DNA of 64,000 nucleotides from Leadbettera azotonutricia ZAS-9 (GTDB taxonomy: Bacteria > Spirochaetota > Spirochaetia > Treponematales > Breznakiellaceae). Location: the NCBI RefSeq assembly GCF_000214355.1, contig NC_015577.1, forward strand, positions 2,719,389 through 2,783,388, written 5' to 3'. The position numbers and the translations under genes are program-made. Numbering within the stretch: the stretch's first letter is position 1; the number at the start of each line of letters is the position of its first letter. Below are positions 6,823 through 63,510 of this stretch, in pieces. The notes beneath the pieces are model-generated. The model had not been told where the DNA came from, did not search any database, and was given only the letters and a program-made list of their open reading frames with translations.

Positions 6823-6856
6823 TTGACAATTCTTTCCTTTCTTAAGACAATTGTCT
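6823..6856 (+). promoter_or_regulatory. candidate promoter and 12-base palindrome before the aminotransferase gene
   Basis: A TTGACA lies 17 bases before GACAAT (a weak -10). That -10 falls inside the perfect palindrome agacaattgtct (6845-6856), which ends four bases before the ATG. The palindrome could be an operator for a dimeric regulator. No ribosome-binding site is visible before the ATG. Confidence 0.4.
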
Positions 6857-6860
6857 AAAT

Positions 6861-8183
6861 ATGAATCCACTAGCTATCGAACTCAACGCCGAATTGAACG
6901 GCACTGCTGCAGGGCGGCTTATGTCCAAGATGGGGAGCCGTCTTTATTTTCCCAAGGGCATCATCGCCCAATCCGCAGAAGCGAAAAAATCCGCCCATGC
7001 TGCCAATGCAACCATAGGCATGGCCTACAGCAAGGGCCTTCCTCTTATACTTTCCTCGATCGTATACAGCATGCCCACCCTCACGCCCGAACAGGCTGTG
7101 GCCTATGCCCCCACCGCGGGGGTAGAAAAGGTGCGCCAGGACTGGAAAAAGCTCATAGCCCAAAAGAACCCTTCATTGAACCCTCAAAACATATCCCTTC
7201 CCGTGGTGGTGCCGGGCCTTACGGCGGGCATCTCCTACATGGCGGATCTCTTCCTGGAAGAAGGGGGCGTCATGCTGGCCAGCGACCCCTGCTGGGATAA
7301 CTACCAGCTTGTTTTTGAGGAGCGCAGGAACGCCCGTCTTAAGGGCATACCTTTTTTTTCCAAGGATTCTATAAAAGCATCCAGGCCAGGGCTCGACCTT
7401 GAAGCCATTAATAAAGCGGTAAAAGAAGAAGCCAAAACCGGGGCTGTGCGCATCATTCTCAACTTCCCCAACAACCCCTCGGGCTATTCCCCCACCAAGG
7501 CCGAATACGACGGCCTGACAAAAATTTTCAAAGAGGCTGCCGAGGCAGGGGCGGACGTGCTGGTGCTCTGCGACGACGCGTACTTCGGCCTTTTTTATGA
7601 GAATGATATTTACCAGGAATCCATTTTCAGCGCATTGGCAGGGCTGCACGAAAAGGTGCTGGCAGTCAAAATCGACGGCCCCATCAAGGAAGATTATGTC
7701 TGGGGCTTAAGGACAGGTTTTGTCACTTTTGGATCAAAGGGCCTCGGCTCGGCCCACTACGACGCCCTTGTCAAAAAACTCATGGGCGCCATACGCTCGT
7801 CGGTTTCCTGCGCCAATACCCCCGCCCAGTACCTCATAATACAGGCAATGGAAGATCCCAGGACCATCAGCGAAAAGGCCCGCTTTCAGGACATGATGCT
7901 CAAGCGCTACCAGGCAGTAAAACAATTTGTCGTGTCTCATCCGAACCACCCGAACCTGACTCCCCTGCCCTTCAATTCAGGCTACTTCATGAGCTTCCGC
8001 ACAGAAGGCGTGAGCGCCGAAAAACTCCGCCAGGAGCTGCTTGCCAGGCACGGCATAGGGGTTGTGTCGTTGGGGGAGAGCTGTCTCCGCGTTGCCTTCG
8101 CGGGGCTGGATGAGGAGATTATAGAATCGACATATAAGGTGATTTACGATACCGCAGAGGGGATGGGGAAGGGGAAGGTATAG
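6861..8183 (+). CDS. PLP-dependent aminotransferase, fold type I
   Basis: The 440-residue protein has the class I/II aminotransferase signatures: NFPNNPSGYSPT near residues 201-212, DDAYFGL near 238-244 for the cofactor pyridine nitrogen, and a probable PLP lysine in GPIKEDYVWGLR (about K276). It would move an amino group between an amino acid and a 2-oxo acid. The amino-acid specificity cannot be read from sequence; the nearest types are aspartate/aromatic-like enzymes. The N-terminus (NPLAIELNAELN) matches this family, which supports the first ATG despite the absence of a Shine-Dalgarno sequence. It is transcribed alone, divergently from moxR, and its stop lies nine bases from the convergent neighbour. 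Confidence 0.85.
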   Translation: MNPLAIELNAELNGTAAGRLMSKMGSRLYFPKGIIAQSAEAKKSAHAANATIGMAYSKGLPLILSSIVYSMPTLTPEQAVAYAPTAGVEKVRQDWKKLIAQKNPSLNPQNISLPVVVPGLTAGISYMADLFLEEGGVMLASDPCWDNYQLVFEERRNARLKGIPFFSKDSIKASRPGLDLEAINKAVKEEAKTGAVRIILNFPNNPSGYSPTKAEYDGLTKIFKEAAEAGADVLVLCDDAYFGLFYENDIYQESIFSALAGLHEKVLAVKIDGPIKEDYVWGLRTGFVTFGSKGLGSAHYDALVKKLMGAIRSSVSCANTPAQYLIIQAMEDPRTISEKARFQDMMLKRYQAVKQFVVSHPNHPNLTPLPFNSGYFMSFRTEGVSAEKLRQELLARHGIGVVSLGESCLRVAFAGLDEEIIESTYKVIYDTAEGMGKGKV

Positions 8184-8192
8184 GCCAAACTT

Positions 8193-8669
8193 TCAGCCTA
8201 TCAACAGTCTGCCTATGTCCTGCAATTCGGGTATCTGCATATAGAGGGGCTTGTGGCCCTTGGCGTCCTGTTTGTCCAATTCCACGAGGTTCACGTAGAG
8301 TTCGTTGAGCAGATCCGCAAAAAGCTGAAGGTTCGAGCCGAAGTTGTTCACCGCCATGTCGCGGAGCACCCGGTCCGGGCCTGTGGAGCCGCCGGAAAGC
8401 CGGTTCCTCAGGGTGGGGACCAGTTCGCGGCGGGTAATGGAGACAAAGCGGGCGGAGGCGGCAATCTGGCGGTAGAGTTCGTCCAGGAGGAAGCCCTGGT
8501 AGCGGAACTGCTCCATCTTTTCCGTGAGGATTTCGATGAGATCCCAGCACTGTTTTTCCAGGGAAAGCTGCAACAGGGCCGGGCGTATAAACCGGTTGGA
8601 GATATTTGACCTGTAATGTTCACCTATGCGTTCAATCAATCTGATAATCTGGGCGTCTCTAACCTGCAA
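8193..8669 (-). CDS. conserved hypothetical helical protein, TTG start
   Basis: I do not recognise the family. The 158-residue product is predicted to be almost entirely alpha-helical and amphipathic, with no signal peptide or membrane segment; it is probably cytoplasmic. The start is decided by the promoter: TTGTCA-17-TATAAT places the transcription start near 8683, which rules out a TTG seven codons upstream. It leaves a TTG preceded by AGAGAGG with six-base spacing (product MQVRDAQIIRLIERIGEHYR). It shares its promoter region with the divergent solute-binding lipoprotein gene. A spirochaete-specific protein is my guess. Confidence 0.6.
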   Translation of the reverse strand: MQVRDAQIIRLIERIGEHYRSNISNRFIRPALLQLSLEKQCWDLIEILTEKMEQFRYQGFLLDELYRQIAASARFVSITRRELVPTLRNRLSGGSTGPDRVLRDMAVNNFGSNLQLFADLLNELYVNLVELDKQDAKGHKPLYMQIPELQDIGRLLIG

Positions 8670-8689
8670 AAATTGCCTCTCTGCATTCA

Positions 8690-8741
8690 ATTATACTCTT
8701 TTTACCCCGGATTGACAAGCACGAAAGATGGGCAATAGAAT
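8690..8741. promoter_or_regulatory. divergent promoters sharing one -35 element
   Basis: The sequence ttgacaa serves both strands. On the plus strand TTGACA (8712-8717) is 18 bases before TAGAAT (8736-8741). On the minus strand TTGTCA (8713-8718) is 17 bases before TATAAT (8690-8695). The two -35 hexamers overlap by five base pairs, so RNA polymerase could occupy only one direction at a time. Confidence 0.7.
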
Positions 8742-8746
8742 TCGGT

Positions 8747-10009
8747 ATGGCGAAATTCGATTCCCGGGCCCTGACAGGCCTTTTTGTACTTCTGGCTGTG
8801 CTTCCTGGTTTGGCCTCCTGCGGAAACGGCGATAACAGGGCAGCGGTTTTATGGACGGACAGGCCGGAATTCACTTTTTATGCTGAACAATTCAACGACA
8901 GCCAGGATAAATACAAGGTCGAAGCCCGTTATTTTGAGTCCCCTGCCCAAAAACTCACCGACGGGAACGAAAACCCCGACATAGTGGCGGCAAGCTGGCT
9001 TAAAAGCGCCTCCACCAGAGCCCTCTTCCTTCCCCTGGACAGCCTCCTGAACCGCGAAACCATTTCCCAGAGCGCCTTCTACCCCCGGCTCCTTGCCCTG
9101 GGCAGCATCGAAGGCAGGCAATACCTCCTGCCCGTAGCCTTCAATATACCTGCCATGGTTTTCGCACGGGATCACAGCCAGCTCCTTTCCAACCCCTTCA
9201 CCATCGATATGGAGGAAATCATGGACAGGGGCAAGGCTTACAACACCGACACCAACGGCGTCTACACCCGCATGGGTTTTTCCCCCTCGTGGAACGATGA
9301 ATTTTTGTTCATCGCCGTCACCCTCTTCAACACAGGCTTCAGGGAAGCCGCGCCCCTTGCCTGGGACCCCCAGGCCCTTGAACGCGCCCTCGTCTGGATA
9401 CAGAAATGGATCAACGAAGCCAACACCAGCATACAGGCAGAGGATGATTTCGCCTTCAAGTACCTCTACGATCCCCCTGCCAAACTCGTAAGCTCCGGCC
9501 GTATCTTTTTTACCTACATGGATAGTTCCGAATTCTTTACCCTTGCGGAAGACCGGCGGACCAACCTCCATTTCCGCTGGATCGCGGAAAAAGATGTAAT
9601 CCCCCTGGACGAATGGAGCGTCTACTACGGCATACACAAAAAGACAAAGGCAAAAAAAGCGGCCACAGCCTTTACCGAATGGTTCTTCCAGGCCGAAACC
9701 CAGCGCCGGCTTCTGGACGCGGCCAAGGCAAAACGCCTCCTCGAAAATTCCTTCGGCATAGGCGGCGGCTTCTCGGCCATGCGCACCGTAACCGAGCAAA
9801 TCTTCCCCCACTTCTACCCCAGCCTCCTGGGCCACATGCCGCCGGAGTCTTTCCTCTCGCCGCCCAATATACTCCCCCGCAACTGGATGACCCTCAAAGA
9901 AAGGGTCATACTCCCCTACCTCCATGACAAGATACGCCATGCCGAAAGGGACGAGGTGCGGCATCTTGAACGGAGGATCACGGACTGGTACAGGCTGAAC
10001 AGGGAATAA
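8747..10009 (+). CDS. extracellular solute-binding lipoprotein (ABC-type)
   Basis: The 420-residue protein has a short signal peptide with a lipobox (LASC, Cys about residue 25). The mature part has the features of sugar-type extracellular binding proteins: a strand-rich start (AVLWTDRPEFTFYAEQFNDS), PDIVAASWL, and a WSVYYGIHKKTKAKKAATAF segment late in the protein. It probably sits at the outer face of the inner membrane and delivers a small organic solute to an ABC permease. No permease or ATPase gene is nearby, so it is an orphan. The -10 box ends five bases before the ATG and there is no Shine-Dalgarno, so the mRNA is probably leaderless. Confidence 0.75.
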   Translation: MAKFDSRALTGLFVLLAVLPGLASCGNGDNRAAVLWTDRPEFTFYAEQFNDSQDKYKVEARYFESPAQKLTDGNENPDIVAASWLKSASTRALFLPLDSLLNRETISQSAFYPRLLALGSIEGRQYLLPVAFNIPAMVFARDHSQLLSNPFTIDMEEIMDRGKAYNTDTNGVYTRMGFSPSWNDEFLFIAVTLFNTGFREAAPLAWDPQALERALVWIQKWINEANTSIQAEDDFAFKYLYDPPAKLVSSGRIFFTYMDSSEFFTLAEDRRTNLHFRWIAEKDVIPLDEWSVYYGIHKKTKAKKAATAFTEWFFQAETQRRLLDAAKAKRLLENSFGIGGGFSAMRTVTEQIFPHFYPSLLGHMPPESFLSPPNILPRNWMTLKERVILPYLHDKIRHAERDEVRHLERRITDWYRLNRE

Positions 10010-62465: not shown

Positions 62466-62494
62466 TTGACAAATAGAAAATCCGGGCTTATAAT
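62466..62494 (+). promoter_or_regulatory. consensus promoter of the UroD-like gene
   Basis: TTGACA, 17 bases, TATAAT: both hexamers are perfect. The -10 ends eight bases before the ATG and the short leader (ttattcat) has no Shine-Dalgarno. Confidence 0.8.
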
Positions 62495-62502
62495 TTATTC
62501 AT

Positions 62503-63510
62503 ATGACATCCAGAGAACGTGTATGCCGATCCATGCACTTCAAAAACCCTGATCGTATTCCGGTTCAGTACTATTACTGCCCTGTGGGGTATTACGAACA
62601 TGGGGATAAACTGAACGATCTTTACGCAGGATTGAAAGGCGATTTTGCCCCCATTGTCAGGGTGAAGCCCCCTGCGCCGCCCGCTTCGGACTTTGATGCA
62701 GAGGGAAAGTACCACGCCTTCAAGAAGGACGAATGGGGTGTCCTTTGGGAATACAGGATCTACGGTGTTACAGGCATCCCAAAAGAATATCCTTTGGCTG
62801 ATCCGGACAGGATAGCTTCCTTTACAACGCCGCCGCTTCCCGCCATTGTCCCGCCACCCGCTCAAATTTCTGGCAACAGCTTCTACCGTCTCGAAGGCTG
62901 CGGTTCCCTCTATGAACGCATGATCGCCCTGCGGCCCGAGGCGGATGTGCTCTGTGACATCATTTCGGATGAACCCTACATACACAAACTCGCGGATAGT
63001 ATCATTGGGTATGACGCCGCTCTTGTCGAACGGGCAATAGCTTCCGGCGCCGATGGTATAGCCTTTGGAGACGATTACGGTACTGAACGGGCCATGTTGA
63101 TGAGTCCCGCCCTATGGCGCTCATTTTTTAAACCCCTATTGTCTGCCCTCTTCAAACCTGCAGTTGAGGCGGGGCTGGATATACACTTCCATTCCTGCGG
63201 CTATATTTGGGACATTCTGAGTGATTTTGCTGAAATCGGGATTACTTCGATTTGGCCTCAACTTCCCATATACGATATGGGCTGTCTCGCTGCCCGCTGC
63301 CGCGAACTGCGCCTTGCCGTCGCAATTCATACCGACCGGGCCAGAACCATGACCTATGGCTCCCCTTCAGATGTACGGGAACTGGTATTGAGGGAGTGCG
63401 AGACGTTCAAACTGCACGATGGGGGCGGTTGGTTTTATATTGAGGCCGATAATGGCTTCCCCTTCGCCAACCTTGCGGCTCTGGTTAATACGATAAAGGA
63501 GATTCGATAG
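62503..63510 (+). CDS. uroporphyrinogen decarboxylase-family (corrinoid methyltransferase-like) protein
   Basis: The 335-residue protein has the UroD-family plan used by MtaA/MtbA-type methyltransferases: MTSRERVCRSMHFKNPDRIP, SGADGIAFGDDYGTERAMLM, LDIHFHSCGYIWDILSDFAE and IWPQLPIYDMG, ending with GGGWFYIEADNGFPFANLAA. The zinc ligand region of such enzymes (HxCG) is present as HFHSCG. Family members transfer methyl groups to or from corrinoid proteins or act as decarboxylases. It is not the haem enzyme, which lacks the HxCG motif. It is followed by a related fragment and a further related gene. Confidence 0.78.
   Translation: MTSRERVCRSMHFKNPDRIPVQYYYCPVGYYEHGDKLNDLYAGLKGDFAPIVRVKPPAPPASDFDAEGKYHAFKKDEWGVLWEYRIYGVTGIPKEYPLADPDRIASFTTPPLPAIVPPPAQISGNSFYRLEGCGSLYERMIALRPEADVLCDIISDEPYIHKLADSIIGYDAALVERAIASGADGIAFGDDYGTERAMLMSPALWRSFFKPLLSALFKPAVEAGLDIHFHSCGYIWDILSDFAEIGITSIWPQLPIYDMGCLAARCRELRLAVAIHTDRARTMTYGSPSDVRELVLRECETFKLHDGGGWFYIEADNGFPFANLAALVNTIKEIR

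Follow-up and report, generated by a model that had tools for sequence, protein, structure and literature searches.

The window analysed here is a 64,000-nucleotide stretch of the Leadbettera azotonutricia ZAS-9 genome (one contig, 3,855,671 bases). Within it, two divergent genes face away from a compact intergenic region (Table 1). The plus-strand gene had been read in the first-pass annotation as a solute-binding lipoprotein, and its domain match agrees; relatives were found in 113 of the 145 family genomes searched. The minus-strand gene, beyond which lies an aminotransferase gene, encodes a protein that the same annotation called helical and of unknown kind, with relatives in 78 of the 145 genomes. 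That description fits: the protein is predicted to form a helical bundle (mean pLDDT 90), had no match in Pfam or NCBIfam, and the profile of its family found no sequence relative in the PDB. Across 53 family members, Pfam returned scattered weak matches (best 0.0021), and in fold searches with the model Foldseek found nothing at E 0.001 or better, while Z scores to helical bundles were only middling (best 7.7). The searches made brought up no resemblance to a DNA-binding regulator for the product of either gene. The named relatives (Treponema metagenome bins, Breznakiella and Gracilinema) indicate that the family is probably Breznakiellaceae; we take the source organism and these relatives to be termite-gut bacteria.

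Table 1. Coordinates of genes and promoter elements at the divergent locus (window positions).
Feature	Position	Strand	Remark
Helical-protein gene, 158 aa, TTG start at 8669	8193-8669	−	homology begins at this start
Shine-Dalgarno GAGAGG before TTG 8669	8676-8681	−	
−10 box TATAAT, helical-protein gene	8690-8695	−	spacer 17 nt
Conserved core ATTGACAAG around shared box	8711-8719		22/23 to 23/23 genera per position
Shared −35 element TTGACAA	8712-8718	both	identical in 23/23 genera
−10 box TAGAAT, lipoprotein gene	8736-8741	+	spacer 18 nt
Solute-binding lipoprotein gene	8747-10009	+	Pfam SBP_bac_8, 2.7e-10

Between the two genes, TTGACAA can be read as a −35 element from either strand. The hexamer facing the lipoprotein gene is TTGACA (8712-8717, plus strand) and that facing the helical-protein gene is TTGTCA (8718-8713, minus strand); offset by one base, they have the five base pairs TGACA (8713-8717) in common. 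TTGACAA is an odd palindrome (TTG-A-CAA), each half of which provides the TTG of one direction. The first-pass annotation had placed two −35 hexamers on the same five base pairs, with near-consensus −10 boxes on both sides, in the span 8690-8741, and all of this is exact to the base. Consensus positions are matched at 11 of 12 in each direction, and both directions have the near-consensus −35 and −10 hexamers, 16-18 nt apart, of a sigma-70 promoter. Relatives have similar spacing, with a TAGNAT-type lipoprotein −10 mostly 17-18 nt from the −35 and the helical-gene −10 mostly at 17 nt.

The lipoprotein ATG is the sixth base after its −10 box and has no Shine-Dalgarno leader, so that a leaderless mRNA is predicted. 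Measured from the first base of the box, this ATG is found at 34-39 nt in 41 of the 46 loci with a usable lipoprotein (hand count), which, combined with spacers of 17-18 nt, predicts a leaderless lipoprotein mRNA throughout the relatives. One leaderless transcript and one with a normal ribosome-binding site had been proposed for this DNA, and the geometry agrees on both counts. Because homology of the helical protein begins at TTG 8669, behind the Shine-Dalgarno sequence, the minus-strand gene has a short leader: 20 nt containing GAGAGG separate the −10 box from this TTG, and the start codon does not lie at the predicted transcription start. The same homology ruled out TTG 8690, the start of the longest open reading frame.

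Start codons of the helical-protein gene differ among relatives with the length of the leader. ATG is used in 64 of 65 loci with at most 10 nt after the −10 box, whereas 10 of the 14 loci with longer leaders use TTG behind a Shine-Dalgarno sequence, with GGAGG-like sites; the search gave ATG priority within a few codons, which biases this survey mildly. The helical-gene mRNA would thus be leaderless in most relatives and carry a leader, a Shine-Dalgarno sequence and a TTG start in the window genome, and since the latter is among the 14 leadered loci, its start is probably a derived state. If transcription begins 6-8 nt after each −10 box, the predicted starts are A8747 for the lipoprotein gene and 8682-8684 for the helical-protein gene, about 63-65 bp apart. 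Start codons of the divergent pair were 64-66 bp apart in 24 of the 41 relatives measured.

Leaderless starts seem common in the window genome. Among the 24 promoter-like sites that were strongest in 444 kb, seven are followed by an ATG at 4-9 nt from the −10 box; in a published survey, leaderless genes are listed for 6 of 18 spirochaete genomes (PMC3160421). Elsewhere in the window, TTGACAA and TATAAT at 62466-62505 precede by 8 nt the ATG (62503) of a 335-aa open reading frame of the leaderless type, and a weak divergent −10 is present at the same site. At 6823-6861, TTGACA-17-GACAAT stands 9 nt before the ATG of the aminotransferase gene, possibly also leaderless, and an opposite-strand gene lies across from that promoter.

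To judge how readily such an arrangement arises by chance, we counted it in a 444-kb sample of the genome (the window and a further 19 stretches, each of 20 kb). Thirty-three places had a shared −35 whose weaker direction matched 8 or more of the 12 consensus positions, and this locus was alone at 11 of 12 in both directions (next best, 10). A strict pattern of the arrangement (spacers 17-19 and 17-18) had one match in the 3.86-Mb genome, this locus, and a looser one (TTGNCAA, spacers 16-18) matched six places against one for the control. In 57 family genomes the arrangement had 186 matches against 19 for the reversed control, a difference that we did not use as evidence, since the count also goes up with every TTGACA promoter that happens to have a reverse −10. 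The genome holds 49 copies of TTGACAAGC and 22 of its reversed control. A general preference for TTGACAAGC was rejected as the whole explanation, because AGC follows TTGACA in only 1 of 30 promoter-like sites of the genome sample, that one being this locus; A follows TTGACA in 16 of the 30.

Conservation is a stronger argument than these counts. We compared one locus per genus from 23 genera in which the pair is kept in working geometry: TTGACAAG was identical in all 23, and the preceding A was found in 22. Conservation extends to both −10 regions but not to most other intergenic positions, and the intergenic DNA of these genera yielded neither a conserved block beyond the box and the −10 regions nor a second conserved palindrome. 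As ATTGACAAG is invariant or nearly so while most intergenic positions drift, the arrangement cannot be put down to chance. Breznakiella homolactica (L240) is among the relatives with the box. Its age had gone unnoticed in the first-pass annotation, as had the predicted absence of leaders from both mRNAs in most relatives and the probably derived nature of the start led by a Shine-Dalgarno sequence in the window genome; the elements described there (the shared −35, the two −10 boxes and the leaderless lipoprotein start) prove to be conserved across the family and to follow gene content.

Gene content was compared with each half of the box in 78 family loci, identical upstream sequences being counted once. 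Seven loci belonging to the order but not to the family, and one at a contig end (L037), were excluded. The helical-gene promoter was located without scoring the lipoprotein half, the distance to the lipoprotein ATG was measured separately, and the two were then combined. The TTG half is kept in 45 of 46 loci with a lipoprotein ATG 28-60 nt from the box and in 9 of the 32 loci where the lipoprotein is absent or its start has moved, the decayed boxes typically reading ATATACAAGC or TTTTGCAAGC. The CAA half is kept in 46/46 and 31/32 loci, respectively, a retention that is in part circular, since the −35 of the helical-protein gene served as the anchor of the search. Fisher's exact test of TTG retention against lipoprotein geometry gave p = 1.6e-11, which overstates the evidence since it ignores the kinship of the loci. 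On the tree the lipoprotein geometry changes 8 times and the TTG trait 7 times, and a phylogeny-corrected test leaves 3 independent pairs on supported branches and 8 on all branches, too few for significance.

The reverse comparison drew on 56 family loci in which the lipoprotein has no adjoining helical-protein gene. Three keep a TTGA-type leaderless promoter, all without the CAA half (TTGACCTTC, TTGACAGAA and TTGACATTT; two of the three are from one genus). In many others, as read from the sequences, the lipoprotein gene apparently lies directly behind the aminotransferase gene that in the window is found beyond the helical-protein gene. Taken with the one-sided decay in most loci whose lipoprotein gene has left or moved, each half of the box appears to track its own gene.

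The same script was applied to a second set of 22 new loci. Twelve have an ATG at 34-37 nt, and TTGACAAG is present in 12/12. The box is also kept in four loci whose nearest in-frame ATG is at least 68 nt away (L275, L284, L287 and L292), in two where no in-frame ATG was found and GTG starts are possible (L246 and L264), and in one with ATGs at 10-28 nt (L286). The lipoprotein start has moved and TTG is lost in L269 and L307, and in L295 the script chose the wrong box, though a box is visible.

In nine loci of the main set TTG persists although, by the geometry applied, no lipoprotein could use the box. In L011 there are two separate copies of GATTGACAAGC, in L064 the lipoprotein start lies upstream of the intact box, and in L102 (G013:C269) a tRNA-Val gene has taken the place of the lipoprotein opposite the helical-protein gene, with the box intact and TATAGT 17-18 nt from it on the tRNA side. 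Retention in the other six (L062, L065, L084, L089, L091 and L093) is not fully explained. A further variant, L046, retains the lipoprotein, which has a separate box next to that of the helical-protein gene. In L008 and in a genus designated g50, the lipoprotein ATG is found on the upstream side of the former box, the lipoprotein −10 (TATACT) overlaps the −10 of the helical-protein gene, and 21-24 bp separate the two start codons, near the 23-bp class of known bidirectional promoters; g50 has apparently gone over to a −10 predicted to be common to both genes. The loci with this displaced lipoprotein start, overlapping −10 boxes and predicted shared −10 are L064, L083, L085, L086 and L008, and L066 looks like a second such case. 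Outside the family, five relatives from the order have the divergent pair without a shared box. The shared box therefore looks family-specific, though in L017, which belongs to a different family of the order, the lipoprotein by itself has this box (TTGACAAGC at its promoter, with the helical-protein gene about 1.1 kb away). The L017 promoter keeps GATTGACAAGC, and an apparent intervening gene may use the reverse half.

We read the locus, with a probability of roughly 0.8, as a bidirectional promoter region of the housekeeping (sigma-70) type in which one −35, TTGACAA, is used from both strands by two divergent genes. Sigma region 4 would dock on TTGACAA in either orientation, and polymerase would then melt one of the two flanking −10 boxes, so that divergent mRNAs would arise with starts about 65 bp apart. 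The lipoprotein mRNA would begin at its AUG; the helical-gene mRNA was probably leaderless ancestrally and in the window genome would begin about 13-15 nt ahead of the UUG led by the Shine-Dalgarno sequence. Polymerase bound one way would exclude the other orientation, so that the two genes would share one docking site. The first-pass annotation had them competing for RNA polymerase, a reasonable inference given that the box can be occupied in only one orientation at a time.

Both promoters may be real and yet share the box only through the shortness of the intergenic region, leaving the genes functionally uncoupled. We consider this unlikely, if by some way the most serious alternative. The intergenic region is indeed compact, one genus moved its lipoprotein start yet kept both genes, L011 and L046 have separate boxes, and examples in E. 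coli are reported to show little competition at basal activity (PMC12825309). Against this, the overlap has been kept through 23 genera, and both directions are near consensus, so that occupancy may be high, although neither point by itself shows coupling. It is very improbable that ATTGACAAG is instead the binding site of a shared regulator, coincidentally at the −35 position: near-perfect conservation of 9 bp in 23 genera seems, in our judgement, above what is usual for a single −35, but the distances to the two −10 boxes hardly vary (17 nt; 17-18 nt), the box changes by halves with gene content and not as a unit, and the −10 regions are the only other conserved blocks between the genes. Marginally less probable still is a true promoter in the lipoprotein direction alone, with TTGACAAG as the preferred −35 of the clade and the reverse boxes a by-product of near-symmetry, for although TTGACA holds its own near-reverse (TGTCAA), is often followed by A (16/30) and in L017 keeps TTGACAAGC away from the helical-protein gene, the −10 of that gene is conserved at 17 nt, AGC follows TTGACA at 1/30 sites only, and where no usable lipoprotein remains it is mostly the helical half that persists and the lipoprotein half that decays, the opposite of what such a promoter predicts.

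A bidirectional −35 would work like the bidirectional promoters already described in bacteria, while falling outside the published class. In those reports it is the −10 that serves both directions, and pairs of starts are counted when 7-25 bp separate them (PMC10268837, PMC12825309), commonly 10, 18 or 23 bp (PMC12825309); activating one direction represses the divergent RNA, and little competition is described at basal activity in E. coli (PMC12825309). Common to both would be one pseudo-symmetrical core element that takes polymerase in two orientations, produces divergent RNAs and excludes simultaneous binding, and TTGACAA is such an element as judged by sequence and conservation only. Here, unlike there, it is the −35 that is shared, with the −10 boxes flanking it, and the predicted start separation lies outside 7-25 bp.

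The closest arrangement found is the cvkR/cas12k pair of an Anabaena CAST system, likewise divergent, with both mRNAs leaderless and promoters overlapping in a short intergenic region of 82 nt (PMC9938897). In that pair, one product is a MerR-type repressor of the other promoter, whereas for neither product here did the searches show likeness to a DNA-binding regulator. Classical overlapping divergent promoters have opposed, overlapping polymerase footprints, often with a regulator bound between them; the present locus differs in having no conserved regulator site between the genes. The open-licence papers searched contained no description of a shared −35.

A broader proposal, which we hold only tentatively, is that the shared −35 forms a stable promoter class of its own. 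Polymerase orientation alone would then set the ratio of two ancestrally leaderless mRNAs, and the class would be family-wide, able to swap partners (as with the tRNA gene) and to convert to a shared −10 (as in g50). Promoters of this class would lie outside the 7-25 bp rule by which bidirectional promoters are counted and would be missed in start-site maps, a hint that tallies built on closely spaced starts omit a class. Whatever regulatory use the arrangement may have, the family offers, at one orthologous locus, a natural experiment on the way a single −35 serves polymerase in two orientations, with a change of partner and an apparent move to a shared −10 alongside intact and half-decayed boxes, and this makes it testable whether sharing a −35 couples two genes.
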